Below are positions 11,396 to 44,412 of a stretch of DNA of 64,000 nucleotides, in pieces. Positions within the stretch are counted from its first letter, which is position 1. Every line of letters starts with the position of its first letter. The notes beneath the pieces are model-generated. The model saw only the letters and a list, made by a program, of their open reading frames with translations. It searched no databases and had not been told where the DNA came from. A program made the translations under genes and the position numbers. The stretch lies in the NCBI GenBank assembly GCA_944332505.1, contig CALVKC010000002.1, positions 62,001 through 126,000 on the forward strand. The letters are read 5' to 3'. This DNA is from an uncultured Bacilli bacterium (GTDB taxonomy: Bacteria > Bacillota_I > Bacilli_A > RF39 > UBA660).

Positions 11396-11444
11396 ATGAA
11401 TATACTTCCTTTCTTCTATCATAATAAAAGTGAACTATATCACT

Positions 11445-29207: not shown

Positions 29208-30218
29208 TTATATTATAACTGGTAAATTAGAACTATCTATTTGATTTAATTGGTCTAATAATCTACCATAAAATCCTTGTGAATTTTTAAATTTTTCACA
29301 TATAGCTTTTAATCTATTTAATTCATCTTCTGTTGATATTTGTAAATCATCACTTTCTAATGCAATTATCAAATCAATATCATCTTTAAAATCAGATACT
29401 GATTTAGCTTCTGTTAATGTTTGATTATTTTCAAAATCAGATTTTTTCATTATATCAATTTCATCATTATTTTCTAAATTTTCCTCTAAACTTTCAGTTA
29501 CTTCATATGGGTGTTCTTTTCTAAATTTAGTTAATGCTTTTATAGTTTCTTTATATAAAAATTCATTTTGTTCATCTGGTTTTTTGTCCCAACCCCTATC
29601 ATAGTTTACAATTAATTCATTTTTAGCAATATCTTTAATAGATAATTTACTTATTGGACCATTATCTATTCCATATTCACTACCTTCTAAAAATACTTTT
29701 GCGTCTATTTTGTAGTCAACACCATTATACTGTGCATTACCAACAATATATAAATCATCTTTTGCTAACTTTAAATCAAATTGAATTTCACTAGATTTAG
29801 CTTCATTTAGATTAGAACTTTCTATTGTTAAAAGTTTTTTATCAACAATTCTATTTTCATCATCTAATCCTAATACAATAGTATCAGCATTGTCTAACTT
29901 AGATTGTTCTTGCATATCTATAAAGTAAACTACAACTTTATTACCTTTTATATTTTTAATTACTGTTTCAAGTTCTGGTGTTAATATTTTTGGTTCTTCA
30001 TTTAATGTATCTATTACAGTTTCTTTTGTTCCAACTGTACTCGTACAATAATTCATAACCTTTTGGTCTAATCTATTATTTAGTATGTCTCCAATTTCTA
30101 CTAAATCACTAACTTTATTTGTATTTTTACTTTCTAATTTTTTATTAGGTTTCACATTGTTTCTATGTAGACCTTCTGTTAAAAACCTAATAGTTGCGTC
30201 TGTTATATTTTCTTTCAT
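29208..30218 (-). CDS. Cargo-like hypothetical protein, 336 aa
   Basis: Start chosen at ATG 30218 (MKENITDATIRFL), preceded by GGAAGGTG. The N-terminal ITDATIRFLTEGL matches the KLTEATILAL / KLVEATINLL starts of two proteins at 59-62 kb. Further L-x-E-A/S sites occur at LNEAKSS, VTESLEEN and LTEAKSVS. The middle (IKGNKVVVYFIDMQEQS, LYIVGNAQYNGVDYKIDAKV) is beta-rich. No named family. It has both a sigma70 promoter and a late motif upstream, so it could be made early and late. A packaged head protein is my inference. Confidence 0.6.
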   Translation of the reverse strand: MKENITDATIRFLTEGLHRNNVKPNKKLESKNTNKVSDLVEIGDILNNRLDQKVMNYCTSTVGTKETVIDTLNEEPKILTPELETVIKNIKGNKVVVYFIDMQEQSKLDNADTIVLGLDDENRIVDKKLLTIESSNLNEAKSSEIQFDLKLAKDDLYIVGNAQYNGVDYKIDAKVFLEGSEYGIDNGPISKLSIKDIAKNELIVNYDRGWDKKPDEQNEFLYKETIKALTKFRKEHPYEVTESLEENLENNDEIDIMKKSDFENNQTLTEAKSVSDFKDDIDLIIALESDDLQISTEDELNRLKAICEKFKNSQGFYGRLLDQLNQIDSSNLPVII

Positions 30219-30247
30219 ACTTTCCACACCTTCCACAATTTTTTAAC

Positions 30248-30276
30248 ATTATATTATAAATTTTAAAATTTGTAAA
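30248..30276 (-). promoter_or_regulatory. Sigma70/SigA promoter
   Basis: Minus strand TTTACA (30276-30271), 17-nt spacer, TATAAT (30253-30248), 30 nt before the 30218 start. It lies just downstream of a late motif, giving a dual promoter. Confidence 0.65.
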
Positions 30277-30297
30277 TAGTTTTTACATAAAACTCTT

Positions 30298-30312
30298 ATA
30301 ATAATATTTTAC
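30298..30312 (-). promoter_or_regulatory. Late promoter motif (copy 9)
   Basis: Minus-strand GTAAAATATTATTAT, one base from consensus, directly after the endolysin terminator. Confidence 0.6.
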
Positions 30313-30320
30313 AATTAGTA

Positions 30321-30347
30321 TGGGTGTAATGATATACACTACACCCA
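30321..30347 (-). terminator. Terminator of the endolysin transcript
   Basis: TGGGTGTA (30321-30328) pairs with TACACCCA (30340-30347). It is 20 nt after the endolysin stop codon. Confidence 0.7.
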
Positions 30348-30366
30348 CATTTTATATTATCAAATT

Positions 30367-31530
30367 TTAGTTAGGAATTTTTAATGTCTGACCTGTATAA
30401 ATAATATATTTTGGTCCTTTTATACCATTCATATCAGCTATTTTATGCCAGTCTACCCCATATTTAGCACCTATTCCAGATAATGTATCACCACTTTGTA
30501 CTTTATAAGTTTTAGTAGTATTTACAGTTGATGAACTTGTGCTAGAACCACTTGTAGGTATTTTTAATTTTTGACCTGGGTATATAATATATTTTGGTCC
30601 TGAAATTCCATTTAATGTAGCAATATCTTTCCAATTTACACCATATTTAGCACCTATTTTAGATAAGTTATCTCCACTTACAACTGTATATGTTGTACTA
30701 TTATTGCTACTTCCACCATTATAAATTTTATTTACAATACTTTGTACTGCATTGTAATCATAACCAGCAGCTTCTAATCTACTTTTTCTTTCATTACCAT
30801 TACCCCATTTACCATCTATACATTCTTGGGCTAATGTTTCATTTGATTTAGTAGGTGTTGTTGGTTGTGATGGTTGTACTGCACCACCTCTAATTAGACC
30901 TGGGTAGTCTATATAAGCATAGTTTGTATCTAATCTTCCACTATAACCACCAAATGAACCATTTGACGTAAATTGCCATAATGTTAAATTATTTCTTTCA
31001 CTTGCTTGAACATTTAATCCTCTTTGAACACCACCACTTGTAGGCCATTGAGCAACCCATTTATCATATGGTTTTAATTCACTACCATTTAATTGATTAT
31101 TGAACCAACTAGACGAAGCATATACACCAACATAATAACCAGCACTTTCTACCTTTTCACAGAAAGCAGCACACATTTCTCTTAATGTTTGATTACTTGG
31201 CATACCATTTTTTCTTTTATAACCATCAGCGTCTTCCATATCAAACCAACAACCATATGAGTAACTATCTTTATATGGTGCAACAGCATTTAAAAAATGT
31301 TCAGCTTCTCTTTTTGCACCATCAACATTTAAAGCATATGAATACCAATAAAAACCAAATGGTAATCCTATTGACTTACATAAGTCAGCATTTCTTTTAA
31401 ATTTAGTATCAAGTGTACCACTTACACCATAACCAACTCTAATAATAGCAAATTCTACACCATTATTTTTTAGTGCTACCAAATCAATATTACCTTGATG
31501 AGCACTAATATCAATACCTCTTTTAGCCAT
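30367..31530 (-). CDS. Endolysin: GH25 muramidase with CW_7 and two LysM domains
   Basis: 387 aa; cleaves the N-acetylmuramic acid bonds of peptidoglycan at lysis. Residues 1-210 are a GH25 lysozyme with the catalytic acids visible (GIDISAHQG, D7; WFDMED, D97 and E99) and WVAQW / LWQFTS motifs. About 228-270 is a CW_7 (Cpl-7-type) wall-binding repeat (LAQECIDGKWGNGNERKSRL). About 279-325 and 342-387 are two LysM domains (TYTVVSGDNLSKIGAKYGV and TYKVQSGDTLSGIGAKYGV). There is no signal peptide, so release depends on the holin, likely the gene at 58942. GGAGTTG before ATG 31530 lies inside the end of the preceding 37-aa ORF. Confidence 0.96.
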   Translation of the reverse strand: MAKRGIDISAHQGNIDLVALKNNGVEFAIIRVGYGVSGTLDTKFKRNADLCKSIGLPFGFYWYSYALNVDGAKREAEHFLNAVAPYKDSYSYGCWFDMEDADGYKRKNGMPSNQTLREMCAAFCEKVESAGYYVGVYASSSWFNNQLNGSELKPYDKWVAQWPTSGGVQRGLNVQASERNNLTLWQFTSNGSFGGYSGRLDTNYAYIDYPGLIRGGAVQPSQPTTPTKSNETLAQECIDGKWGNGNERKSRLEAAGYDYNAVQSIVNKIYNGGSSNNSTTYTVVSGDNLSKIGAKYGVNWKDIATLNGISGPKYIIYPGQKLKIPTSGSSTSSSTVNTTKTYKVQSGDTLSGIGAKYGVDWHKIADMNGIKGPKYIIYTGQTLKIPN

Positions 31531-31532
31531 TA

Positions 31533-31646
31533 TTATTCAACTCCTTCCATAGACATTTCATCTTCATTATATTCTGGCTCTGTTCTATTTAATTCTGCAT
31601 TACCTTCAACAAAACCATCAGTTGTTACAACATTTTCATCTTCCAT
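31533..31646 (-). CDS. Tiny acidic ORF upstream of the endolysin, 37 aa
   Basis: ATG 31646 follows a strong AGGAGGT. It encodes a very acidic peptide (begins MEDENVVTTDGFVEGN, ends EDEMSMEGVE) and stops 3 nt before the endolysin start, whose ribosome binding site lies within its last codons. The late motif at 31674-31688 is 28 nt upstream. It may be a translational-coupling leader or a small lysis regulator; no homology recognised. Confidence 0.6.
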   Translation of the reverse strand: MEDENVVTTDGFVEGNAELNRTEPEYNEDEMSMEGVE

Positions 31647-31673
31647 CACAATTACCTCCTATATTAATTATCT

Positions 31674-31688
31674 CTACTAATATTTTAC
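31674..31688 (-). promoter_or_regulatory. Late promoter motif (copy 10)
   Basis: Minus-strand GTAAAATATTAGTAG, placing the endolysin under late control. Confidence 0.65.
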
Positions 31689-31712
31689 TTATAGACCTAT
31701 AAAAATAAAGAT

Positions 31713-31738
31713 TGGTAGTAACCTAATTGTTACTACCA
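31713..31738 (-). terminator. Hairpin terminator
   Basis: TGGTAGTAAC / GTTACTACCA stem with a 6-base loop, followed by AATCTTTATTTTTA on the minus strand. It ends the 34048-31760 unit. Confidence 0.75.
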
Positions 31739-31759
31739 CGTTTTCAATAGTATTTTTAA

Positions 31760-32197
31760 TTAATCTTCATCTTCAATGTCATCATCAAGAAACATTTTAA
31801 AGTATTTTGCTACTTTATATTTAGGTGCGTCAATATCATTTATAAATAATTTTGACATTTCTAAACAGAACTCTTGTAAATCTAATCTTTTACTTTCAGC
31901 ATAAGATTTATAATCATTATAAAACATATTCATAGTTAGATAATAATCTATACAAGCACCTTCTGCTATACCAACCTTACGTAATATTTCTTTAACTCTT
32001 TCCATTGAAAATGTTTCCCCATTGGGTTCAAATGAGTGAACTATATCAACAGCTTCCGTCTCATCAATGCCATATAAAATATCTTCTAACATTTCAGAAA
32101 ACTTTTCAAATAAGTGTACTTCACATACTTTTAGTTCATCTAAAATGTCACATACAATATCTTCTAGGTCTTCTTTCTCAATTTTTGATAAGTCCAT
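31760..32197 (-). CDS. Hypothetical protein, 145 aa
   Basis: Acidic helical protein. The stretch FEPNGETFSMERVKEILRKVGI followed by CIDYYLTMNMFYNDY is well organised and looks like a conserved small phage family, but I cannot name it. AAAGGAGT precedes ATG 32197. It is the last gene of the five-gene unit downstream of the agr-like cassette. Confidence 0.6.
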   Translation of the reverse strand: MDLSKIEKEDLEDIVCDILDELKVCEVHLFEKFSEMLEDILYGIDETEAVDIVHSFEPNGETFSMERVKEILRKVGIAEGACIDYYLTMNMFYNDYKSYAESKRLDLQEFCLEMSKLFINDIDAPKYKVAKYFKMFLDDDIEDED

Positions 32198-32212
32198 AGA
32201 TATAACTCCTTT

Positions 32213-32605
32213 CTATGCAATCCTATTAACACCTAATGCTATATTAGATATTGTTATATCTGTTGTAGGCATTACTGTTAATGTTACATTATCAGCAAAA
32301 TCTCCTCGATTTGCTCTAATTATAGTAGTAAAGGAACTATTGTTATAACTATCTGCAACTATTGTATCTGTTATTATTGCGTCTGGTATTGCTACACCAT
32401 CAGCAAATAATTGAATAGATGATAACCCAACAGTACCACTAGTATAAGACACGTCTAATGTTACCATATAGTAACCTTGTCTATTTACATTAATGTTTGT
32501 TGCACTTGGGTGTGTTACACTATTTCCAATATTAATCTTATCAGTGTTAAATGGAATAGCAGTATTAGCTGTTGCAGTTATACTTTTTGAGTAGGTTCTC
32601 AACAT
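32213..32605 (-). CDS. Jelly-roll-like virion surface protein, 130 aa
   Basis: Beta-only protein with repeated short strands (TANTAIPFNTDKINIG, NVNRQGYYMVTLDVSYTSG, FADGVAIPDAIITDT) and ending ISNIALGVNRIA. The pattern resembles C1q/TNF-like jelly-roll heads used as small spike or collar domains in gut phages. AGGAAGGAGG precedes ATG 32605. Confidence 0.6.
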   Translation of the reverse strand: MLRTYSKSITATANTAIPFNTDKINIGNSVTHPSATNINVNRQGYYMVTLDVSYTSGTVGLSSIQLFADGVAIPDAIITDTIVADSYNNSSFTTIIRANRGDFADNVTLTVMPTTDITISNIALGVNRIA

Positions 32606-32621
32606 ACTTAACTCCTCCTTC

Positions 32622-33425
32622 CTATATTACACTTGATACTCCGTAACCATAACCATAGCCACAATTAGAAGCTGATTGGTATGGACTGCAAGTAATATAA
32701 GCCGGTATTGGAGCAGGTTTTAGTTGATTAACTATATTATTTGTTTGAGATACTTGTGAGATTTGGAATTGAGCTGATTGTAATTCTCTATCTCTTTCTT
32801 GTAATCTATCTCTTAATGTATTGATTTCATTTTCACACATTTTATCTAGTATTTTTTGTGTATTAGCAGCATTTTCTGCTTTTATATCACAGCAACATTG
32901 TGCTAATTGTGCCTGTAAATCTCTACCATTTAAGATAATATCTTTTTGTATGTTTGCTTGGCCTAGTGAATTATCATATCTATTTTGCATTAAGTCTTTT
33001 TGAATACCTGCTTGACCTAATGAATTTGTGTATCTATTCTCAATTATTTCTTTTTGAGTTTCACAGCAACACGCTTGATTTTGTGCTTGTAAGTTTTGTA
33101 AACCTAATTGATTTGTATATCTACTTTCTAATACGTCTCTTTGAGTTTGACAAGTTGAACTTAAAAGCTCATTTTGTGTTGCAGCAGCAGTATTTGATAC
33201 ATTTTGATTTGTATTAAATATATCACGTTTAATAAATTCTTCATTTAATAATGTGTCATTAGTAACAGCATTATTACCAAATCCAAATCCATTACCATTA
33301 AACATTCCTGCTACAATTAAGAATACGATTACCCACCAGAAACTAGCACCTCCCATCAAATCATTACCATTATTTTTAGTTAGCGCTAGTATATCACCAG
33401 CTGATAGACCTGAACCGTTTTCCAT
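32622..33425 (-). CDS. Cysteine-triplet repeat membrane protein, 267 aa
   Basis: N-terminal Gly/Asn region, one membrane segment (FWWVIVFLIVAGMF, about 29-42), then a repetitive helical part with units ENRYTNSLGQ / QNRYDNSLGQ / ESRYTNQLGL. Two CCC clusters (ACCCETQ, QCCCDIK) are followed by a coil and a Tyr/Gly tail (CGYGYGYGVSS). Proteins of this look are common beside small virion genes in Firmicutes phages; function is unknown. GAAAGGAGG precedes ATG 33425. Confidence 0.62.
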   Translation of the reverse strand: MENGSGLSAGDILALTKNNGNDLMGGASFWWVIVFLIVAGMFNGNGFGFGNNAVTNDTLLNEEFIKRDIFNTNQNVSNTAAATQNELLSSTCQTQRDVLESRYTNQLGLQNLQAQNQACCCETQKEIIENRYTNSLGQAGIQKDLMQNRYDNSLGQANIQKDIILNGRDLQAQLAQCCCDIKAENAANTQKILDKMCENEINTLRDRLQERDRELQSAQFQISQVSQTNNIVNQLKPAPIPAYITCSPYQSASNCGYGYGYGVSSVI

Positions 33426-33474
33426 AGTTCATTCCTCCTTTCAATTAAAAATATTTATATAATTATTGCAATAA

Positions 33475-33693
33475 TTAACGTTTTTGATTATTAAGTGCAT
33501 TTATTAATTGACGTTTAGTTATTCCATTTTGATTACATAAATCTGCTATTTTTTGTGCTTTTTCTTCATCTGTACCACTATTCATTAGGTTTGAAAAAGT
33601 TGTTTTTAGATTTTGATTTGGTAACATATTCATTACCATTGACATTGGGTTCTTGCTCTTTGATAATTGGCTCATTAGATTTTGAATACTCAT
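33475..33693 (-). CDS. Small helical protein, 72 aa, overlapping the upstream gene
   Basis: Met/Asn/Gln-rich (MSIQNLMSQLSKSKNPMSM ...) with a C-terminal helix-turn-helix-like stretch (DLCNQNGITKRQLINAL). ATG 33693 is preceded by GGAGATG inside the 34048 gene. The two coding frames overlap by 116 nt. This composition is typical of small accessory proteins near phage tail genes. Confidence 0.6.
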   Translation of the reverse strand: MSIQNLMSQLSKSKNPMSMVMNMLPNQNLKTTFSNLMNSGTDEEKAQKIADLCNQNGITKRQLINALNNQKR

Positions 33694-34048
33694 TAAACTT
33701 CATCTCCATTTCCCTTAATTTACTTTCAAGATTTTCTATCTTTAAGTCCTTTTCATCTTTTGGTAAGATTAAGAAATATTCCTTAATTTCACCATCTACC
33801 TCTTTTATAGATAATCTGCCATCTTTTAAATTAATAAATGCTGTTTTATTAGCAACTAAAATATCTGATGGATTTTCTGTTGTAAATTTAGCCTCAAAGA
33901 TAGGTTGTGGTGCAGGTGCTTGTTGTGGTGTTGTTATAATATTATTAATAGGTGGTTGCCCCATTCCCATATTTTGAAAATTGGCTTTCATTCTTTGTAA
34001 GTCCTCAATTTGTCTATCAATTCTTTGAATATCAATAGGATTATACAT
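33578..34048 (-). CDS. Hypothetical virion-associated protein, 156 aa
   Basis: N-terminal coil (IQRIDRQIEDLQRMKANF), Pro/Gln linker, a compact beta domain (FEAKFTTENPSDILVANKTAFINLKDGRLSI) and a second coil. AAGGAGGAA precedes ATG 34048. It is first gene of a unit whose sigma70 promoter -35 lies inside a palindrome (34108-34118). Confidence 0.6.
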   Translation of the reverse strand: MYNPIDIQRIDRQIEDLQRMKANFQNMGMGQPPINNIITTPQQAPAPQPIFEAKFTTENPSDILVANKTAFINLKDGRLSIKEVDGEIKEYFLILPKDEKDLKIENLESKLREMEMKFNEYSKSNEPIIKEQEPNVNGNEYVTKSKSKNNFFKPNE

Positions 34049-34082
34049 AAGATTTTCCTCCTTACACTTAATTTATATATTT

Positions 34083-34118
34083 ATTATATAAATTAACTTT
34101 TATTAATGTCAGTCTGAC
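34083..34118 (-). promoter_or_regulatory. Sigma70 promoter with palindromic operator over the -35
   Basis: Minus strand CTGACA (34112-34107), 18-nt spacer, TATAAT (34088-34083). The -35 lies inside GTCAGACTGAC (34118-34108), a 5-bp perfect dyad; with flanks TAGTATA..TTAATA the match is 9 of 12. Such a position would let a repressor or regulator block RNA polymerase. It is immediately downstream of the agr-like cassette and drives 34048-31760. Confidence 0.55.
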
Positions 34119-34142
34119 TATACTAACATTTTTAAATAAAAA

Positions 34143-34171
34143 AATAGAGAGAATTATATATTCTCTCTATT
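34143..34171 (-). terminator. Terminator of the agr-like cassette
   Basis: AATAGAGAGAAT / ATTCTCTCTATT 12-bp stem, 5-base loop, followed by TTTTTTATTT on the minus strand. It separates the cassette from the 34048 unit. Confidence 0.78.
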
Positions 34172-34191
34172 ACACTAAATCACATATTCAA

Positions 34192-34764
34192 TTAAATTTT
34201 ACAATATAGCCTTAATGCAAAGGCAATTTTATCTAATTTTTCAACTATTCTTGGACTATCTAAATCAAGTAATTTAGTTATTTCACCAAATGATTTATTT
34301 TCTTTAAATCTATACTTATAAATTAAATATTCCAAAGCATTTTTATCACTTAACTTTTTCTCAAATTCTAGTAGTTTATCATCAAATTCATTATACTTAA
34401 TAAATTCAACAATATCTTGATATTTACTTGGTTCATTGTTGTTGTGCCATAAATATATATCTTTCATATCACCCTTACCTGTCATAATTAATGCACTAAA
34501 TATAGCAAATAATATTGATACAGTTAAATCTACTTTTAATAATACAAATAGACTTAACAATATTAGTAAACTCCATATCAAACAACGATACCAAGTTTTA
34601 AAATGTAATGCACTTCCAAAGAAACCTCTACTTATCATAAATGTTAGCATTATAATTATTATTTCATTTGTTGGTAGTACTAATAATTTACCCACTAAAA
34701 ATATTATACAAGTTTCAGCAATATTGAAAATTAGACTACTTATTATATTTTTAATTCTATTCAT
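34192..34764 (-). CDS. AgrB-like membrane peptidase fused to a sigma-region-4-like HTH
   Basis: 190 aa, close to the usual AgrB length, but with a different C-terminus. Residues 8-95 hold about four membrane segments. RGFFGSALHFKTWYRC (46-61) matches the AgrB signature R-x3-GG-x-H-A-K-T-x3-C: His54 and Cys61 keep the exact H+7=C spacing of the catalytic pair, although the GG is GS and there is one extra residue before His. AgrB cuts the AgrD propeptide and forms the (thio)lactone ring. Residues 143-188 (LEYLIYKYRFKENKSFGEITKLL, then DSPRIVEKLDKIAFALRL) look like a sigma70 region-4/HTH domain, absent from textbook AgrB. ATG 34764 follows GAGGAAAAGGA. It is third gene of a minus-strand cassette with a 19-aa peptide and a sensor-like protein. 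Confidence 0.68.
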   Translation of the reverse strand: MNRIKNIISSLIFNIAETCIIFLVGKLLVLPTNEIIIIMLTFMISRGFFGSALHFKTWYRCLIWSLLILLSLFVLLKVDLTVSILFAIFSALIMTGKGDMKDIYLWHNNNEPSKYQDIVEFIKYNEFDDKLLEFEKKLSDKNALEYLIYKYRFKENKSFGEITKLLDLDSPRIVEKLDKIAFALRLYCKI

Positions 34765-34804
34765 ATTCCTTTTCCTCTACTACTTCTAAAAATAATTTTG
34801 CAAA

Positions 34805-34864
34805 CTATTCTCCATCTTCTGCGTCATAAAACCAAAACCAACTATTCCAAGGTCCGTCCCACAT
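34805..34864 (-). CDS. AgrD-like signal peptide precursor, 19 aa
   Basis: MWDGPWNSWFWFYDAEDGE. ATG 34864 is preceded by AGGGGGTG at ideal spacing and lies 17 nt after the stop of the sensor-like gene and 40 nt before the AgrB-like gene. The arrangement fits an AgrD: Ser8-Trp-Phe-Trp-Phe12 would form a five-residue lactone ring of the usual AIP size, and residues 13-19 form an acidic tail (D, E, D, E) like the AgrD C-terminal recognition segment. Unlike AgrD, the leader is only seven residues and has no amphipathic helix. Ring residues and cut site are inference. Confidence 0.6.
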   Translation of the reverse strand: MWDGPWNSWFWFYDAEDGE

Positions 34865-34880
34865 AATTAACACCCCCTAA

Positions 34881-35417
34881 TTACATAACTATGGCACATA
34901 CCATACCTATATTAATTATATAAAACATAAAATTGAATATTACAACATTTAAACTTCTAAATGTTGTTGATTTAATCTTTTTTCTAACATTATCATTTCT
35001 ATTCCATAACTTTTTATAAATATTTTGAATAAGAGATAATTTGTTTCTTAATATAAATAGTATTCCAAATAATACAATTTTATTTATGATATTACTAATT
35101 AACATATTTGGTCCAAATATTGTAAATACAACAAAACTACATATCATTAAAATTAAACTTGCAATACCTAGTGTAAATATATCTGTAATTTGACATTTGT
35201 CATTGTAGAACAATTTTAATATTAAATATAGAGCTATAAAATACAATATATGTGACCAAATATTATATGGAAATGCGTACATTAATAGTACATATTCTAG
35301 TATAGCAGACACTATAAATGTAAATCTTTTTGTTGTTATGTTTTTAGATAATATTATAAATAATGCAAAATACAATGCTTCTGGAACTTGTCCTAATAGA
35401 ATTTCAAATGGGTTCAT
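34881..35417 (-). CDS. Six-TM AgrC-sensor-like protein without kinase, 178 aa
   Basis: Polytopic membrane protein. Hydrophobic segments lie at about 12-25, 31-49, 52-70, 77-100, 104-123 and 154-177, with basic loops (KNITTKR, RNDNVRKKIK). Size and topology match the N-terminal peptide-sensing half of AgrC kinases, but the frame stops where the histidine-kinase part would begin. No H, N or G box is present anywhere nearby. ATG 35417 has AAAAAGGAAAG. It is first gene of the cassette, behind its own promoter. Alternatives are a peptide exporter/immunity protein or an unrelated membrane protein. Confidence 0.55.
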   Translation of the reverse strand: MNPFEILLGQVPEALYFALFIILSKNITTKRFTFIVSAILEYVLLMYAFPYNIWSHILYFIALYLILKLFYNDKCQITDIFTLGIASLILMICSFVVFTIFGPNMLISNIINKIVLFGILFILRNKLSLIQNIYKKLWNRNDNVRKKIKSTTFRSLNVVIFNFMFYIINIGMVCAIVM

Positions 35418-35462
35418 TTTTCTATCTTTCCTTTTTAAATCATAATTTTAACTGCTTATTAT

Positions 35463-35518
35463 AATATATCACCTATATACATTAAATCTCAATTTGCACA
35501 TATGATGAACCATCATAT
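35463..35518 (-). promoter_or_regulatory. Promoter and upstream palindrome of the agr-like cassette
   Basis: Minus strand TTGAGA (35492-35487), 18-nt spacer ending AGGTGA, TATATT (35468-35463). The AGGTGATATA block is shared with the methyltransferase promoter. Directly upstream of the -35 lies a perfect inverted repeat ATATGATG-3-CATCATAT (35500-35518). No T-run follows, so it is more likely an operator than the terminator of the preceding fibre gene. Confidence 0.55.
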
Positions 35519-35525
35519 CTATTAA

Positions 35526-36941
35526 TTAGTTGTTATTACCTAGTATATCTTCTGCTAATTCATTACTATCATTTATTGTAGTATTTAATGTTTGATTTTC
35601 TTGTGTTAATGTTTCTATTTGTTCTTGTGCTTCTACTGTTGCTTCATATGTACCAGTTATACCTAAAATAGTTACACCCTTTTTTATAATATCTGGTGTT
35701 AAACCAATAGCAGTAGCTACTTCTGACATTTGTGATGATATTGTTATTTCATAGGTTGGTGTTTCAAAATAAGCTGGACCATTCTGTGGTTCAATCGAAT
35801 GTATTTCAATAAAAGAACCATCAGAACCTGTATCTGTTACTATGTGGTCTAAACCACAATTTAATCCACCTGCTAAATTACTTGCAGTATATTTTTGAAT
35901 TATATTTAATCTTAAAGTATTTTCAACATTACTAATTACTTTTCCTATAAGTATTCCACATTGTCCACTTTCTGTTCCATAATCTTCTCCAAGTGGTATA
36001 TTATATTTAAGTTTCACATAATCCCCAACATTAGCTTCAATTGTAGCACTTAAACTAATCTCTTGTGGAATAGAGTTTATTGGTTGTGTGTAATTTAAGG
36101 TTGTTTCTATAAAATTTGATACTTGTCCACTACCACTACTTGCTGTCCCCTCAATTCCTAATATTGTGTTTCCTTCAACAAGTTTATCAGCAGTAAGACC
36201 AATAGCAGTAGCTACGTCTGAATAATCTGCATTAAAATTCATACTCACATTACTATCTAAAATCTGTTTAGTAGTATTTATTGTCGTTAAATCTAGTGTA
36301 CTATCTTCTATATTATTAGTTACACCAGCATTACTTACTGTAAATGTACTAGTGTTAGGAAATAATGGTAAAGTACCTGTTATTTTTTGACCATTCACAT
36401 ATGCAGTTTTGTTAATTAATATATCTTCGGCAATAGCATTAGCGTCACTAGTATCTATGCCACCAGTAGTTGCTGTTCCCTCTATTCCTAATATTGTGTT
36501 ACCTTGTACTATTTTTTCAGCTGTAACACCAATGGTATCAGCCAATGTTTGATATGGTATTTCTGTCCAACCAGTAGCACCATTACTCATTATTACACGT
36601 TCACCTGAATAATTATTAGGTCCTTGTGATTTAACTATATTATGCTCATCATCTAATGTAACTGACTCAGCACGGAAAAATACAGAAGCACTTTCCCTTA
36701 ATGTACCAGTAATTTTCTCCCCATTAACATATGCTGTCTTATCTTTTACTATATCTCCCACTTTTGCATTTGCGTCTGCTGTATCTGCTTGTAAAGTTGA
36801 TATATTATTTATTTTATCAACATATTCTCTGAATGGAACAGAACTTGTTATATCTTGACCCTTATTAGTTATAGCAGTCTTAATTTGTTCTTTTGTTTCA
36901 GCCAAATATTCTAATTGGGTATTTAATTCACTCATACTCAT
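35526..36941 (-). CDS. Receptor-binding/tail-fibre protein, type-B docking domain, 471 aa
   Basis: The N-terminus (LEYLAETKEQIKTAITNKGQDI, then PFREYVDKINN) is docking domain type B, shared with the genes at 41770, 46507 and 53089. Three DANA(x)AEDILxNKTAYVNGxKITGTL-type modules follow, then an oligosaccharide-binding-like beta region, and a C-terminal coil ending NELAEDILGN. AAGAAAGGTGG precedes ATG 36941. A late motif and terminator lie upstream. It probably sits on the baseplate or collar for host recognition. Confidence 0.72.
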   Translation of the reverse strand: MSMSELNTQLEYLAETKEQIKTAITNKGQDITSSVPFREYVDKINNISTLQADTADANAKVGDIVKDKTAYVNGEKITGTLRESASVFFRAESVTLDDEHNIVKSQGPNNYSGERVIMSNGATGWTEIPYQTLADTIGVTAEKIVQGNTILGIEGTATTGGIDTSDANAIAEDILINKTAYVNGQKITGTLPLFPNTSTFTVSNAGVTNNIEDSTLDLTTINTTKQILDSNVSMNFNADYSDVATAIGLTADKLVEGNTILGIEGTASSGSGQVSNFIETTLNYTQPINSIPQEISLSATIEANVGDYVKLKYNIPLGEDYGTESGQCGILIGKVISNVENTLRLNIIQKYTASNLAGGLNCGLDHIVTDTGSDGSFIEIHSIEPQNGPAYFETPTYEITISSQMSEVATAIGLTPDIIKKGVTILGITGTYEATVEAQEQIETLTQENQTLNTTINDSNELAEDILGNNN

Positions 36942-36972
36942 TATTTATTTTCCACCTTTCTTATTAATTTAT

Positions 36973-36987
36973 CTAATAATATTTTAC
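36973..36987 (-). promoter_or_regulatory. Late promoter motif (copy 11)
   Basis: Exact minus-strand GTAAAATATTATTAG, 5 nt after a terminator stem and 32 nt before the 36941 start codon. Confidence 0.72.
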
Positions 36988-36991
36988 ACAA

Positions 36992-37019
36992 AAAGACACC
37001 TAAAAATTAAGGTGTCTTT
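36992..37019 (-). terminator. Hairpin terminator
   Basis: AAAGACACCT / AGGTGTCTTT stem (AAAGACACC 36992-37000 with GGTGTCTTT 37011-37019, plus one T-A pair), followed by TTTTGTGT on the minus strand. Confidence 0.75.
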
Positions 37020-37027
37020 AAAATAGT

Positions 37028-39349
37028 TTAATTTGTTGCAAATTGATTTAATTCTTCTTCTGTATAGCCTGTTGTCCAACCACTATCAACTAATGCCTGA
37101 TAATTACTTAATGTTGTGCATTTATAACATTGTTCAGCACTTAATCCACAATATTTTAATGTTTTATTTTTTGTAACTGTATCAGGTGCAGTTGTTAAAG
37201 TTGCCAATATATTATTTAAACTTTCATCTGATAAACTTGAACAATTTGAAAATGCACTACCCCAATTATAACTTGTAAAATTTGATAAATCATATTGTGG
37301 AACTGTTACCAAATTGCTACAATTTGAAAATGCAGAACTAATTGAAGTTAATTCACCTTGTATTGCTGTATTACTTGCGTCTATTAATGCAGTACACCTA
37401 CTAAACATACTTGACATTGATTTATTGTTTGAATAATCATAATCAGGTGCTACTGTCAACAATTCACAACTAGTAAATGCACCAGAAAATGAAGTTACTA
37501 AACTTGTATCTAATACCGGCATTGCGTCATCTGTTAGTGATTTACAATTAGTAAACGCATTTGATAAACTAGTTAAATTATTTTCAAATGTCAAATCTGT
37601 TATATCAATACTATGTAATTTTGTATTTTCATTAAATCTTATTGAATTAGATTTAATAGTACCTGATAACTTTATAGTTTCTAAATTGTTACACTCACTA
37701 AATGTTACATTATATGCAGAAGTCATTATTATATCAGCAGATTTTAGATTTCTATTTCTTTCAAATCTTATTTCTTCTTCTACATTTCCAAATGTTAAAT
37801 TTGCAATTTCTAAATTTCCCATATGTGACATAAATCTTTGTATATCTCCAAATGTTGTTATAGGTAATTTTGTATTCTTATAGTTATACAAATCAATCAT
37901 CATACCATTATATACACTGTTATCTTCTAGCATATCTTTTAATTTACCATATACATTAAATTTATATGTTAAGTCACTACCACCAGTTGGTTTATTATAT
38001 AATGTTCCTGTTACAACACCATTATTACCATATACTGTATAATCATTTGGTATTTCTTGATTATTACAATAAAGTTGATTTGATAATCTAGTTGGTGTAC
38101 TCGTTGCAGTTGTTTTATAATATAGTCCTGTAAACACATTGCCTATTGAATATAAAAACTTACCAATTCTATCATCATAATTACCTTTTATCATACCCAT
38201 TTCATCATTATTAATATTTACTTCTCTATCAAATGTATTCCTACTTTGAGTATATGTAATACCATCAGTACTTTCATATTCTAATATATAATTCTCTATA
38301 TTTGGGTCATTATATGCTATATCTCTATATTGCTCTAACTTAAATTTTGTATGTGTTAAATCAACTGTAATAGAACCTCTCCAATAATCTTCTTCATTAC
38401 CAATTAAATTATCTATATGATATTCCTCATCAGTATCAACGGCAGTAGATAATGTAACAATATCATCAAAAGTGTCTAATTTAGTACTACCAGTTTTATA
38501 TATATTAAGTGGTATTCTACTATTAGTTTGATTAATAATACCTATATAATTTGTTCCATAATGTATTGTATCTTGTTTAAATTCATCTACTGTTTCATAT
38601 ACACTTGCATTAAATACAGTAGACTGTGTTTTATTCCAAGTCTTTGTGGCTTCATCATATTTATAAAAATTTTCAAATATTTGATTTCCTATATCAACTG
38701 TTGCATATGTTTCATCTAATTGTTCAATATCATTATTCATTGCAGTTATACTACTATATATTTTTACATTTTGATAATCATCAATATGAGTTACAACTTT
38801 AAATTGAAAACTATCATTGTATGAATTTCCACTTCCATCTTTTCTAAACTTTATATATATAAAATGTTCACCTTGTGAAATATTATTATATACATACCTT
38901 TGTACATTTGACATACTACTACCTTTAAATGATTTTTCAATTAATGTAGCACTATCAACTGTATTACTTGCACTTAATTCAGTATCTAATTTAGATAATA
39001 TACCAAAATCAAAACTACTTTCAGCATAATTTATACAATCTAATACTAAACTACAACCATCATACAAAGCATTAAATGTAACTTTACATAGTGCATAAGA
39101 ATTACTAACACCTTTATTATTGCTCTCATAATAACCACTACTATTTAGTGCAAACATATATGAACCACTATCTGGTTTATTTACTACTATACTATCTACT
39201 TGTTCTTTTGATGAATATGCTATTCCAGATTGTTCTAATGTTCCTTCCACATTTAGTATTGTAACACCTTTTCTAATATTTGCAGGAATAAGATTTTTAT
39301 TTAATTCATCATATATTGTTTTTATATTTTCCTTTAATTGATTTAACAT
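37028..39349 (-). CDS. Receptor-binding protein with DUF285-like repeats, 773 aa
   Basis: Begins with docking domain type A (LKENIKTIYDELNKNLIPANIRKGVTILNVEGTL). Then come a CINYAE receptor module (about 65-190; FALNSSGYYESNNKGVSNSY ... GEHFIYIKFRKDGSG), several beta modules, and from about 545 an array of MFxxCxxL repeats (NAFTNCKSL, GAFTSCELL, SMFSRCTAL, SAFSNCSNL, SAFSNCSSL) like the DUF285/BspA-type leucine-rich repeats of mycoplasmas and gut Firmicutes. The last ~60 residues (SLSDESLNNILATL ... LVDSGWTTGY) also occur at the end of the 50763 protein. TTGGGGGT precedes ATG 39349. Confidence 0.75.
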   Translation of the reverse strand: MLNQLKENIKTIYDELNKNLIPANIRKGVTILNVEGTLEQSGIAYSSKEQVDSIVVNKPDSGSYMFALNSSGYYESNNKGVSNSYALCKVTFNALYDGCSLVLDCINYAESSFDFGILSKLDTELSASNTVDSATLIEKSFKGSSMSNVQRYVYNNISQGEHFIYIKFRKDGSGNSYNDSFQFKVVTHIDDYQNVKIYSSITAMNNDIEQLDETYATVDIGNQIFENFYKYDEATKTWNKTQSTVFNASVYETVDEFKQDTIHYGTNYIGIINQTNSRIPLNIYKTGSTKLDTFDDIVTLSTAVDTDEEYHIDNLIGNEEDYWRGSITVDLTHTKFKLEQYRDIAYNDPNIENYILEYESTDGITYTQSRNTFDREVNINNDEMGMIKGNYDDRIGKFLYSIGNVFTGLYYKTTATSTPTRLSNQLYCNNQEIPNDYTVYGNNGVVTGTLYNKPTGGSDLTYKFNVYGKLKDMLEDNSVYNGMMIDLYNYKNTKLPITTFGDIQRFMSHMGNLEIANLTFGNVEEEIRFERNRNLKSADIIMTSAYNVTFSECNNLETIKLSGTIKSNSIRFNENTKLHSIDITDLTFENNLTSLSNAFTNCKSLTDDAMPVLDTSLVTSFSGAFTSCELLTVAPDYDYSNNKSMSSMFSRCTALIDASNTAIQGELTSISSAFSNCSNLVTVPQYDLSNFTSYNWGSAFSNCSSLSDESLNNILATLTTAPDTVTKNKTLKYCGLSAEQCYKCTTLSNYQALVDSGWTTGYTEEELNQFATN

Positions 39350-39368
39350 ATTATAACCCCCAAATTAT

Positions 39369-40091
39369 CTATATTTCAGGTCCTGCAATTAATGTACCAG
39401 AACCAACATTTGTAATAAATATATTTGTATGTAATTCATATAATCCTATTACATTATCAGATACTCTTTTTGCAGGTATAAACTCTCTAACTAATTCATC
39501 TATTTCAGATATATTAAAATAATATAATTTTACTTGACCTGCATATGTATTACTTTCTGGTGACCAACCACCTGAACTAGATGACGTATTAACACAAAAT
39601 ATTCCAATAGGACCAACACCGGCATTAACTGTACCAGTTGTTGTTATACTTGAACTATTTGAATTTTCTGTAACCCAAGTACATAACTTTTGGTATGCCT
39701 CTATTTCAATATCTTGATTATAGTATGGTGTTCCACCAGTCTTTTCATTACCTGTTCTACAATAACAAAAATTATTTGCACTATTCCAACGTGTTGCAAA
39801 AGTGAGTGCATTATATCTATATGAATTACGCCTAGACCCAAATATAAATTGATAATTATGAACACTATCTTGTGTTGCATTAATTTTGCAATTTATTTTA
39901 GTACTAGCTGTATGAACATAACTAGTATTTAGATATTGAGTTCCAGTAGACTGTATATATTCTAATTCTATATACTCATCTGGTAATCTTGAATATTTAG
40001 TATGGTCAATAATAGCAGTACTTATATTTTTTGCTTGATTTAATACAGTTGTAATTCTTTTTATTTGTGTTTGTAAATTACTAATTGCCAT
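39369..40091 (-). CDS. LamG/concanavalin-like receptor-binding protein, 240 aa
   Basis: After an N-terminal coil, residues about 40-240 form a LamG-like lectin: EYIELEYIQSTGTQYLNT, FIFGSRRNSYRYNALTF, VKLYYFNISEIDELVREFIP and the closing FITNVGSGTLIAGPE. The same fold occurs at the C-terminus of the 54874 protein. Start chosen at ATG 40091 (MAISNLQTQ), since AGGTG is well spaced from it. Probably binds host surface glycans. Confidence 0.7.
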   Translation of the reverse strand: MAISNLQTQIKRITTVLNQAKNISTAIIDHTKYSRLPDEYIELEYIQSTGTQYLNTSYVHTASTKINCKINATQDSVHNYQFIFGSRRNSYRYNALTFATRWNSANNFCYCRTGNEKTGGTPYYNQDIEIEAYQKLCTWVTENSNSSSITTTGTVNAGVGPIGIFCVNTSSSSGGWSPESNTYAGQVKLYYFNISEIDELVREFIPAKRVSDNVIGLYELHTNIFITNVGSGTLIAGPEI

Positions 40092-40109
40092 ATACTTATA
40101 CACCTACCT

Positions 40110-41750
40110 TTAACTTATCTCTATTTGAAATTGAAAACTATCATTATTTGAATTACCACTACTATCTTTTCTAAACTTAACATATATAAAATGCTCTCCT
40201 GCTGGTACATTTTCATATATAACATTCTGTATAGATGATGAACTAGACCCCCTAAATGACTTTTTAACATTACTACCACTATCAGCAGAATTACTAGATG
40301 ATAATGTTTTATCTATATTTGATAATATACCATAATCATAATTACGTTCTGCATAATTTATACAATGAAATGTTACTGTACCTGTTCTTACTAATACAAA
40401 TGATACCTTACATAAAGCATATGAATTGTGTACACCTTTATTATTACTTTCATAATAGCCCTTACTATTTAATACAAATGTATATGAACCATTATCTGGT
40501 TTTACTACTGATAATAATCCACCAATGGCTTTTACAACTTTAAACTGTAAACTATCATTATATGAATTTCCACTTCCATCTTTTTTAAACTTTATATCTA
40601 TAAAATGATTTCCTTTTGGAATATTCATATAAACTACTGGTTGTATTGTTTCATAACTACTACCTTTAAATGATTTATAAACTAATCCAGTCGTACTTGT
40701 ATCATCACTATTTGACAATGTTAATTCAGTATCTATATTAGAAAATACACCATAATCATAATTACTTTCTGCATAATTTATACAATCTAATTGTAATAAA
40801 CTACCATCTTTTGGTGCTTCAAAATCTAATCTACATATAGCATATGAACTAGTTATTCCTTTATTAGTACTTTCAAAATACTTATTTGAATTTAATCTAA
40901 ATCCATAACTAGCATTTTTAATGTCAAGTACACTATAATCCATATTATCTATACTATATTGAGCACCCTTTAAAAATCCTGTATCATTATGACCTTTATA
41001 TATTTTATTGTTTATCATATCATAATAACAATATATTGTATTTTCACCTTCAACAATACTTGTAGCCATAAGATTTAATTTATATTCTCTTATTCCTTCA
41101 TTATTTAATTCTGATAATTTATAAGAATAAATCCTTTTTGCTGACATTGGATTTATACCATTATCACTTAATAAATCCCCTTCATATGTTGTTGTTTCAT
41201 CATCTATACTATTTAAAGTTGTCATCAAATTAGTTTCATTAACTGTATTATCTGTAAGAGTATCTACCTTATCATCTATACTATTTAATGTGGCAAAAGT
41301 ACTCAATAAATTATTATCATATGCAGCACCTATTAAAATTGTTTTTTCACTACTAATATCTTCCACAGTATCAGCTCTATATGCTACATTATTTAATGTT
41401 AATCCATTTTTAGATAATACTATTGATACTGGTTCTTGAAGTATAGCTTCTTGATTTGTTGTATATAATTTATTACCTACTATAAATACATATGTGCCAT
41501 TTTTTATAAATAGTGCTAATGTGTCACTACCAGTAATAAACGAATTATCTAGTGATAATGGTGCAAATACCATTTCTATTCTTGTCCCATTTTGAGGTGT
41601 AATATTTGTATCTATATATTGTCCACCATTAGTTTTATGATACAAATATTTAGGGTAAGAATTATATGGATTTAGAATATGATTTACATATGGAAATAAC
41701 ATATTTATTTGTTCTTGAATTTCATATAAATTTTTTTCTACTTGTAACAT
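40110..41750 (-). CDS. Receptor-binding protein with lectin-like and two CINYAE modules, 546 aa
   Basis: Residues 45-175 are a LamG-like module (GGQYIDTNITPQNGTRIEMVF ... KTILIGAAYDN), followed by a linker with two SIDD(x)T repeats. Then come two tandem copies of the ~130-aa module with LDCINYAESNYDYGVFSNIDTEL and FHCINYAERNYDYGILSNIDKTL, each ending IKFKKDGSG / VKFRKDSSG. The second copy is nearest to the module in the 37028 protein. TGGAGGTAAG precedes ATG 41750. Confidence 0.7.
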   Translation of the reverse strand: MLQVEKNLYEIQEQINMLFPYVNHILNPYNSYPKYLYHKTNGGQYIDTNITPQNGTRIEMVFAPLSLDNSFITGSDTLALFIKNGTYVFIVGNKLYTTNQEAILQEPVSIVLSKNGLTLNNVAYRADTVEDISSEKTILIGAAYDNNLLSTFATLNSIDDKVDTLTDNTVNETNLMTTLNSIDDETTTYEGDLLSDNGINPMSAKRIYSYKLSELNNEGIREYKLNLMATSIVEGENTIYCYYDMINNKIYKGHNDTGFLKGAQYSIDNMDYSVLDIKNASYGFRLNSNKYFESTNKGITSSYAICRLDFEAPKDGSLLQLDCINYAESNYDYGVFSNIDTELTLSNSDDTSTTGLVYKSFKGSSYETIQPVVYMNIPKGNHFIDIKFKKDGSGNSYNDSLQFKVVKAIGGLLSVVKPDNGSYTFVLNSKGYYESNNKGVHNSYALCKVSFVLVRTGTVTFHCINYAERNYDYGILSNIDKTLSSSNSADSGSNVKKSFRGSSSSSIQNVIYENVPAGEHFIYVKFRKDSSGNSNNDSFQFQIEIS

Positions 41751-41769
41751 ATATAATTCTTACCTCCAT

Positions 41770-44412
41770 CTAATATAAATTTTCCATTAATTTTACTTTC
41801 AAACTTCCTGAATTTTCATCATCATCTTGTATTATTGGACCCATATTGGTTCTTACTAATTTTACTTCTATAAAATGTTCTCCTGCTGGTACATTTTTAT
41901 ATGTAAGGATTTGTTCTTTACCATTCCAACTCTCATCAACTTCTCTATACACACGTTCAGATACAATAGTATTAGACATACTATAATCATCACCTAAACT
42001 ACTATCTAATTTTGAAATACCAAATTCAAATTCTGTTCTTCCCCAAGACATATTACTACTTAACACAAAAGTTGGAATATATTTTAAAGTTATGATAGCA
42101 CTATCTATTGTAGTATTGAATGTAAATCTTGCATAAGCATAATCTTCTCTAAAATCCTCTGTTATTATTCCATTATTACTATTTTCATAATAACCATTTC
42201 CTATATCATTAAATGTACCATCATCACCTTGTTGTGTAACTACTATGTCTGTTGCAACCCCAATTTCATTTGGAATTAATCTTTTAGAATATGTATTATC
42301 ATTATAAATTGGTATATTTGTTATAAATGGTAGTTTCCCTGAAATATATTGTAATTCAAATATATTATTTTCTAATTGTATATCTGTTTCTTCACTATAC
42401 GCATATGTATCTTCATCAAATATAACTTTCTTACACTCTACATTTTCTTGATTTAATTCCATAACTATTTGAGATGATGAGGAATTTGGTAATACTCCAT
42501 TTATATTAAATTTCAATTCAGCATATGTTGTACTATTCATTAGGTATAATATATACCCAATATTTTCATCAAGATATGCAAAATATAAATAATTTGTATA
42601 ATTTATATTTATATAATCTCTAATACCTACTGGAATATCTATAAATTTCATAATATCTCTAAAATACATATCAATAGAATTTTCTTTTATTATACCAACA
42701 ATTTTATTACCATTAACATATGCAATTTTACCAAATGCTATATCTAATTCAGTTGCAGTACCATCACCTGTATCTGCAATATCTGTTGGTACTACTTTCT
42801 CTACACCATCTAATATGTTTTCAGTTAAAGTTAAACAAGATTTATAATCTGTTGAACTATCAACTGTATTTACAGTAACACTACTATAATAACCATTATC
42901 GGCTGTTTGTTTTTCTGCTGATGGTGTAAATGTTCTTGAACCTCTATTTGTCATAGTACCAGAAGCTAAAATTAAATCCTCATTGTAATATTTATAACCA
43001 CTTAATACTTGTGATTGTGTTGCTTTCGAACCAGTAATTGTAGTAGGTGTTAAATATTTAATATCATCTCTAACTAACCACTCTAATTCATCTAATACTG
43101 GAATTTCAGCAATAACTGGTACGGTTTTTCTATTGTGCATTAATAATCTATTTTTACTAAATCTAATATTACCTATTACTTGATTTCCATTATTAGAGCC
43201 AAAGTACTGGTGTTCTATTGGAATACTTATAGAATATTTTAATGTTGCAGAACCAGAGCTCCAACCAATTTGATAAACTTTTACAGAGTTACCACCAGAA
43301 GCAGACTGTCCAGTTATTATTATATCTTTTTCAGCACATATAACTACAAAATCAGGGTCCTCTGGTGTATCAGGAATAGTTCCAGTTGTTGTCCAAGCAT
43401 TATTTTTATAAACTTGAATATTTTTATCTACAATTCTATGTCCATTTGTAATATCAACTGCACATTGTTGTTTCCAACTATTATATTGAGTTCCGATAGT
43501 GTAATCCTCATTTATAGCATAATACCCAGCACCTGTTTGGTCATTATGAACATTATTGTAACAAAATGCTTTATCATCTTGTGCAAAGAATACAGGGTGA
43601 CCAGCTTGCCATCTACTTGTTGTTTTATTCCATAAAGTAGTATATTGATATGCACCACTTAAATCATCTTGTATTAATTTAAAACAAGTTGTAACTGGTC
43701 CATAACCCCAATTTCCTAAATTTGTATGTGTAACTGCTAATATATTTTTATCAAGATTTGCCCAACTAATACAATAAATAGAATTACTTGTATAAGAAGT
43801 TAAATCTGTCTTTAATAGAAATGTTATCTCATTTGTAACACTATCATAATCATATATAGAAGTATATCTTCCACAAGATAATGCAAATCTATATATTCCT
43901 TTATCTATAATAGGTGAAAATTGAATATCTGGATTAGTTGTATTTCCTGGTAAATTATCAGTTGTAGTTGCTATTTGTGTAAGTACAGTTTTATCTTCCT
44001 CATCAAATTGATATAAAACTATTGTTGGTGTACTATCAACATTTCTAAAATCTACTAAATATTTAAAATCATCACTAACACCAAAATTAAATGATAAACT
44101 TTTAGTTAAATCACTTAATTCATATCTATTAACACTAGTTGCTAATCTATTTGATTTTTCAATAGTACCTTCCACTTTACCACTTGCGATATATGCAGTC
44201 ACACCTTCTAAAATATCATTAGCATTTGCAGTGGCGTCAGACGTATCTGCACCACTACCAGTCTGTATATCTCTTATTTTGTTAGCATATTCTCTAAATG
44301 TATCACTTTCACTTACAGCTTGACCTTTTTCAATAATAGCTTCTTTAATAATATTTTTAGTTTCATCAAGATATTCCAATTTTTTAGTTATTAGTTCTTT
44401 TTCATTTGCCAT
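41770..44412 (-). CDS. Receptor-binding protein, type-B docking, propeller-like middle, 880 aa
   Basis: Start chosen at ATG 44412 (MANEKELITKKLEYL), preceded by GGGAGGT; a TTG three codons earlier is too close. Type-B docking domain (LEYLDETKNIIKEAIIEKGQAV, then FREYANKIRD), one TSDATANANDIL module, then about 350 residues of repeated beta blades (FKYLVDFRNVDSTPTIVLYQF, YCISWANLDKNILAV ...) suggesting a propeller. A second ITPS/GYYSS module, and a diverged CINYAE-type C-terminal module (FEFGISKLDSSLG ... VPAGEHFIEVKLVRTN) complete it. Confidence 0.7.
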   Translation of the reverse strand: MANEKELITKKLEYLDETKNIIKEAIIEKGQAVSESDTFREYANKIRDIQTGSGADTSDATANANDILEGVTAYIASGKVEGTIEKSNRLATSVNRYELSDLTKSLSFNFGVSDDFKYLVDFRNVDSTPTIVLYQFDEEDKTVLTQIATTTDNLPGNTTNPDIQFSPIIDKGIYRFALSCGRYTSIYDYDSVTNEITFLLKTDLTSYTSNSIYCISWANLDKNILAVTHTNLGNWGYGPVTTCFKLIQDDLSGAYQYTTLWNKTTSRWQAGHPVFFAQDDKAFCYNNVHNDQTGAGYYAINEDYTIGTQYNSWKQQCAVDITNGHRIVDKNIQVYKNNAWTTTGTIPDTPEDPDFVVICAEKDIIITGQSASGGNSVKVYQIGWSSGSATLKYSISIPIEHQYFGSNNGNQVIGNIRFSKNRLLMHNRKTVPVIAEIPVLDELEWLVRDDIKYLTPTTITGSKATQSQVLSGYKYYNEDLILASGTMTNRGSRTFTPSAEKQTADNGYYSSVTVNTVDSSTDYKSCLTLTENILDGVEKVVPTDIADTGDGTATELDIAFGKIAYVNGNKIVGIIKENSIDMYFRDIMKFIDIPVGIRDYININYTNYLYFAYLDENIGYILYLMNSTTYAELKFNINGVLPNSSSSQIVMELNQENVECKKVIFDEDTYAYSEETDIQLENNIFELQYISGKLPFITNIPIYNDNTYSKRLIPNEIGVATDIVVTQQGDDGTFNDIGNGYYENSNNGIITEDFREDYAYARFTFNTTIDSAIITLKYIPTFVLSSNMSWGRTEFEFGISKLDSSLGDDYSMSNTIVSERVYREVDESWNGKEQILTYKNVPAGEHFIEVKLVRTNMGPIIQDDDENSGSLKVKLMENLY

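Follow-up and report, generated by a model that had tools for sequence, protein, structure and literature searches.

A phage-borne agr-like cassette whose AgrB-type protein carries a predicted sigma-70 region 4-like DNA-binding domain

We analysed a 64,000-nucleotide stretch from an uncultured Bacilli bacterium (contig CALVKC010000002.1, positions 62,001 to 126,000; hereafter the window), in which an original prediction had placed a phage-encoded, kinase-less agr-like peptide-signalling cassette. The phage location stood: the window carries a Gp23-type major capsid gene (8250-9632), an S77 prohead protease gene (9929-11422), a GH25/LysM lysin gene (30367-31530) and tail-like genes. The three genes of the cassette lie on the minus strand in the order that had been described: C (35417-34881), encoding a six-helix membrane protein of 178 amino acids; D (34864-34805), encoding a 19-residue mini-precursor; and B (34764-34192), encoding a 190-residue protein in which an AgrB half is fused to a sigma4-like helix-turn-helix (HTH) domain. 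Beyond B lies an 11-bp palindrome, the candidate operator TAGTCAGACTG (AGTC-A-GACT; 34110-34120, minus strand), which overlaps the -35 of the next promoter and covaries with the HTH.

Homologues of B are numerous, with 1,122 at E≤0.001 (120 of them listed). Scans of viral contigs returned 26 loci with B as query, 33 with an alignment of C and 40 with a wider alignment of B, contigs recurring between scans; a scan of genome contigs returned ten. One genome record with the cassette has a title that names roe deer omasum. The main set comprised 47 loci, the window included. D precedes B in all 47, and 45 of 47 loci in a near-identical set (L089 replacing L009) also have C, the remaining two, L026 and L089, being cut by contig ends; the cassette is therefore not a chance arrangement. 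It stands as a compact unit, with variable genes on its upstream side and a block that recurs on its downstream side. Among 50,697 phage records, positions 30000-42000 of the window had no near DNA match, and tblastn found no match for B or C of the window, C of L065 or B of L086. Four further viral-contig scans aimed at new test loci brought up no contig from outside the set. Of 390 genomes searched, 14 had a match, nine of them new. Among 386 genomes around G001, the cassette turned up in G001 only. The loci from G001, G002, G003, G005, G006 and G010 were already in the main set. Since L196 and L194 adjoin dnaX/tadA-like and mraZ/rsmH-like genes (named by eye), the system seems to be present on bacterial chromosomes as well. 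L193 adjoins lysis-like genes.

The prediction that B is an AgrB-like protein was borne out for its first part. Residues 1-105 (34450-34764, minus strand) form an AgrB-type membrane module: the Pfam profile PF04647 aligns with residues 8-92 at 20.3 bits, below the cut-off of 23, but matches 37 of 40 B relatives at E≤0.1, and six of ten cassettes from metagenome-assembled genomes (MAGs) exceed the cut-off. The catalytic pair, His54 (34605-34603) and Cys61 (34584-34582), seven positions apart, is invariant in the 40 aligned B sequences, with no loss in any relative. Window B covers profile positions 26-109 of 185 only, short of a full-length domain, and its C-terminal part is the HTH; B is a partial member of the agr family. 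Helices 2-27, 32-49, 58-75 and 80-94 are hydrophobic by eye, and the structure model of this half is of low confidence, with a predicted local distance difference test score (pLDDT) of 45-77 by block of ten. Stray Pfam matches to B included TBPIP_C, in 15 of the 40. At L193 and L197, an additional B-like copy of 98-114 residues with no HTH stands ahead of the HTH-bearing B, and at L030:6001 the reading frame of B is broken, its first open reading frame (ORF) having 59 codons.

The rest of B holds what the original prediction overlooked. Residues ~116-188 (34201-34419, minus strand) are predicted to adopt the helical HTH fold of sigma-70 region 4 (pLDDT 74-93 by block of ten), with a recognition helix from about residue 170; sigma4 domains head both the Foldseek and the VIA lists, and DNA binding is suggested by the covariation described below. 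Because this domain is a candidate output protein, the cassette is kinase-less yet not output-less, contrary to the earlier description. The absence of a histidine kinase was itself confirmed: neither window C nor 22 relatives had a catalytic kinase domain match, and only stray matches appeared (e.g. PhoR, E 0.37). A scan for an AgrA-type receiver plus LytTR, which took in B, C and two flanking genes, found none. A search for standalone forms of the HTH gave 49 short matches; of the ten read, the majority seem to be fragments of B or to begin inside it, and one of the matches, P0146, has an unrelated start.

The palindrome beyond B is a candidate regulatory site. Its core, AGTCNGACT, occurs once in the 64 kb window (0.23 expected), and the -10 hexamer of the downstream promoter, TATAAT (34083-34088, minus strand), lies 23 nucleotides from the start of its right half. 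Equivalent elements were found in 45 of the 47 loci; the operator tests excluded L030, where the frame of B is broken, and L089, where no element was found, and the element of L022 was registered by hand. L030 shows a class-A-like site by eye. In all 45, a -10-like hexamer from a loose list follows 23-24 nucleotides further on. The half-sites agree at 3.87 of 5 positions, compared with 1.38 in shuffled elements. We sorted the elements, in patterns drawn up after viewing the sequences, into class A (around AGTCnGACT, 19 loci), class B (TAGTCGTACTA, 10), class C (TAGGAACCCT, 8), class D (TACACnnTGTA, 5) and class E (TATCCGTTrTA, 3), the class A elements of L015, L018 and L031 fitting the class B pattern too. 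In a scan of 40 loci with these patterns, the element stood just downstream of B in 36, in 33 of them without any other match; in L088 there are two sites of its own class, and L013 and L036 each show a single additional class A match elsewhere. A stricter class pattern had no match in L006, L008, L022 and L027.

The type of element appears to follow the HTH of B specifically. All eight type II HTH domains go with class C operators, all three type III domains with class E, and all five domains that read T-N/Q-R-I-T at the recognition helix with class D. Across the 45 loci, distance between elements correlated with distance between HTH domains (r=0.669) and not with that between membrane halves (0.044), with partial correlations of 0.668 and -0.002. 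Given the HTH, C added nothing significant (partial 0.058, p 0.21, n=43). Among type I domains, the most informative of the 190 positions in B was 171, followed by 174, 43 (in the membrane half) and 170; the best five-residue window was 167-171, and the information peaks at 167-174, at the start of the recognition helix. As the patterns were written after viewing the sequences, only L192 and the palindrome common to L191, L194 and L196 count as independent. L192 pairs a type III domain with TATCCGTTATAGA, as predicted; L191, L194 and L196 have the recognition residues DNH in common and, at the corresponding position, all carry another palindrome, TAGTGGnCACTG. L190 carries TAGTCGTACTG, the site of L193 falls in no class, and the contig of L195 ends before the operator place.

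These data bear on whether the palindrome might instead serve a different regulator, of phage or host, its match to HTH type arising through linkage and shared ancestry. The element does adjoin the HTH-coding end of B, the recognition helices that go with class A resemble those of class B, and L197 and L198 lack a clear palindrome, which counts against our reading, as does a small ORF in L198 that has no tail. We nevertheless consider another regulator unlikely: given the HTH, the element does not track the downstream gene c2 (partial -0.015, p 0.58, n=36, nothing significant added), the information peaks at the recognition helix, and the match recurred in the independent locus L192. Two further observations concern the region after B. 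L191, L194 and L196 carry small ORFs with a common LNWKE[KR]IIV after the operator, and L194 also has a short ORF there that is Spo0E-type phosphatase-like by eye.

D was confirmed as a real AgrD-like precursor. In the window it reads MWDGPWNSWFWFYDAEDGE (MWDGPWN-SWFWF-YDAEDGE; 34805-34864, minus strand) and sits behind TTAGGGGGTGTTAATT; a short ORF with a purine-rich, ribosome-binding-like site (by eye) is kept ahead of B at all 47 loci, D having been picked by hand at L011 and L016. Over the 42 distinct D sequences with Ser or Cys at -12, the ring and tail give a nonsynonymous to synonymous polymorphism ratio (pN/pS) of 0.39 (pN 0.263, pS 0.667), which denotes purifying selection, whereas the two alternative frames reach 1.25 and 0.80 and contain stops in 11 and 34 of the 42 sequences. 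The predicted anatomy is a five-residue Ser lactone ring preceded by seven residues and followed by a seven-residue acidic tail. Residue -12 is Ser in 42 loci and Cys in one; Ser is at -11, with a tail one residue shorter, in three, and L026 has Thr, so that the ring-start residue is Ser in 45, Cys in one and Thr in one. A ring closed as a lactone or thiolactone would tolerate this Ser-Cys exchange. Ser or Cys plus four residues and then an acidic tail, beside agrB, is present in 46 of 47 loci, with cyclisation as a prediction, and by this anatomy D probably belongs to AgrD. The N-terminal amphipathic leader of AgrD is absent, with seven residues before the ring Ser in the window and few in relatives too, and no P-x-x-P motif occurs among the D tails listed. 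We also considered TAG recoding, which would lengthen D; it is unsupported, since TAG closes 13 of the 51 window genes listed, and the stop codon of D is TAA in 31 of 47 loci (a count that includes one mis-picked D).

The original prediction had taken C for the sensor half of AgrC, a match that was not confirmed. Comparison of C (34881-35417, minus strand; alignment A2, 23 sequences) with AgrC by hhalign scored 18.2, no better than two reversed controls (18.6 and 20.4). Searches found no solved relative by sequence at E≤10, and the AlphaFold2 model (pLDDT 85.6, predicted template modelling score 0.81) had no significant fold match in the PDB or a viral library. C is a candidate receptor and a possible member of agr. 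Covariation suggests that C is a partner or receptor of the D peptide, because the ring of D covaries with C beyond B: the correlation is 0.445 with C and 0.274 with the membrane half of B, with partial values of 0.38 (p 0.001) for C given the membrane half and -0.11 for B given C (n=43). D lies between the C and B genes, so linkage is about even on both sides; the tail, expected to be read by B, tracks C (0.32) and not B (-0.01), and the test therefore cannot cleanly split receptor from processing.

The same ring-C covariation would be expected of immunity, and D might then be a short cyclic peptide directed at competitors or superinfecting phages, with C as its immunity protein and the operator-binding HTH as the regulator. 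The highly aromatic D and the compactness of the cassette between its variable and recurring neighbours would suit such a peptide. AgrB-type chemistry, however, is known for signals, the five-residue ring position fits signal anatomy, and in the loci scanned the operator lies ahead of the downstream operon, with no copy found at the promoter of the cassette itself; we regard a non-signal peptide as improbable. A very unlikely alternative is a decoy, a peptide that addresses a host agr with its own AgrB, 39-residue AgrD and AgrC kinase. Four of ten MAG bins with the cassette hold such a canonical agr with a readable 39-residue AgrD (L067-L070), and some rings are alike (CAFWF in the bin, SWFWF in the phage, in G010), but the likeness was judged by eye on four pairs with uncertain binning, the nucleophile differs (Cys) in three of the four, and a decoy leaves the HTH and operator unexplained.

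We hold it fairly probable that the cassette is an agr-like peptide switch of one-component type, with output and peptidase fused in a single protein. Computation gave us an AgrB half that keeps the catalytic pair, selection on D, a predicted HTH fold and the HTH-operator covariation; from there we infer a series of steps. The membrane half of B, an AgrB-type His/Cys protease, would trim the acidic tail of D and close the five-residue Ser lactone ring. Once exported, the ring peptide would build up outside with the number of producing cells, making the switch density dependent, and would be sensed at the membrane by C, alone or together with B. The signal would be relayed to the cytosolic sigma4-like HTH of B, which as a dimer would bind the 11-bp palindrome centred near -39 and set, by activation or repression, the output of the next operon. 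A site near -39 would suit an activator placed beside sigma, and a repressor as well.

The putative target operon (31760-34048, minus strand) holds accessory and virion-surface-like genes at 33578-34048, 33475-33693, 32622-33425, 32213-32605 and 31760-32197. We read these five genes as one unit because no minus-strand terminator-like site occurs before a stem at 31738-31713. The product of 32213-32605 matches BclA_C (E 3.1e-10) and, weakly, the virion structural family phrog_13989 (E 0.00076). Many relatives have a downstream block of c5 or c10, c6, c2 and c3. Lysis control is not our first guess for the target, despite c16, like a small holin-like gene by eye, standing before C in 8 of 47 loci.

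The cassette had been said to have its own promoter and terminator. A terminator-like site was confirmed: a stem of 12 pairs with a T run follows B (34143-34171, minus strand), and the region holds three terminator-like sites compared with 0.4 expected. The promoter of C is weaker than claimed: TTGAGA-18-TATATT with TG (35463-35492, minus strand) is a consensus match only, and promoter-like sites number 26 where 23.7 are expected. A dyad, ATATGATG-GTT-CATCATAT, lies upstream of C (35500-35518, minus strand); no shared dyad or operator was apparent by eye upstream of C in the relatives printed for comparison. Elsewhere in the window, a plus-strand gene for a 1007-residue protein (659-3682) has a C-5 cytosine methylase domain.

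In thirteen relatives (L013, L018, L021, L025, L028, L029, L032, L058, L061, L062, L065, L084 and L086), a structured RNA leader lies directly upstream of C. A closing stem encloses two hairpins, and a hairpin loop forms a pseudoknot with sequence beside the ribosome-binding site. Of its 24 pairs, 18 vary on both sides, and 90.3% of cells are paired compared with 36-50% when slid. It had no Rfam match in the 11 loci scanned out of the 13, and a search of the window did not find it. Further copies at L021:4271-4363, L084:4410-4505, L031:4762-4856 and L032:3263-3357 precede homing endonuclease-like genes (by eye), so the leader is not cassette-specific. L065:12042-12102 matches RAGATH-18 RNA over the gathering score.

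With staphylococcal and clostridial agr (AgrB PF04647, AgrD, AgrC, AgrA), the cassette has in common an AgrB catalytic half with His and Cys, a small precursor with Ser/Cys, five-residue ring position and acidic tail, and an adjacent multi-helix membrane protein. Unlike them, it lacks a kinase and a response regulator, its AgrB consists of the catalytic half joined to a sigma4-like HTH, with the second half missing, and its precursor is leaderless, at ~14-19 residues. Kinase-less phage agr is not new in itself: Hargreaves et al. 2014 (PMC3901668) describe agr in phiCDHM1 and report that phages Davies, Emery and Abouo encode AgrB together with a putative AgrD and with membrane proteins that have no HATPase domain. 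Davies gp44-47 comprise AgrB, a 39-residue ORF and two putative membrane proteins that bear no kinase annotation, a likeness to our cassette, but its 172-residue AgrB has a C-terminus without an HTH by eye, and phiCDHM1 has a 453-residue AgrC with HATPase and a 45-residue AgrD. Phage agr lacks AgrA and may borrow that of the host, according to another account (PMC11945551). A second class of kinase-less phage agr with canonical AgrB lies at L071:1438-2750 and L144:4310-5609, and also in MT835481, with a longer AgrD (38 residues in L071) and a kinase-less membrane protein of 168-169 residues (L071, L144).

The fold of B 116-188 resembles sigma-70 region 4 and YlxM/UPF0122-type HTH proteins, but B would be membrane-tethered, no sigma region 2 was seen in it, and its candidate site is a palindrome near -39 rather than a single -35 hexamer. 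Arbitrium (AimP-AimR) is a phage-encoded short-peptide signalling system; the cassette is like it in encoding a putative short peptide signal, and differs in that no cytosolic peptide receptor was seen and the chemistry would be membrane-side. A DNA-binding domain that is probably tethered to the membrane, and one-component logic, would recall transmembrane transcription regulators such as CadC and ToxR (PMC10269533), whereas the membrane part of B is an AgrB-type peptide-maturation module and its HTH is sigma4-like. Within open-access PMC literature (titles and abstract openings), to which our search was confined, there was no report of a fusion of AgrB to a DNA-binding domain.

The phage agr cassettes of the papers cited are without visible output; the cassette of the window suggests an output, an operator and a likely target operon, with specificity predicted from sequence by the pairing of HTH and operator. 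We put at about an even chance the wider proposal that this is a new design of peptide quorum sensing, in which the signal-maturing enzyme is the DNA-bound regulator, passed between phages, with HTH and operator swapped together several times, and also found beside housekeeping genes in apparent bacterial chromosomes. If true, signal synthesis and readout on DNA would fall to a single protein, giving a large family a compact communication switch.
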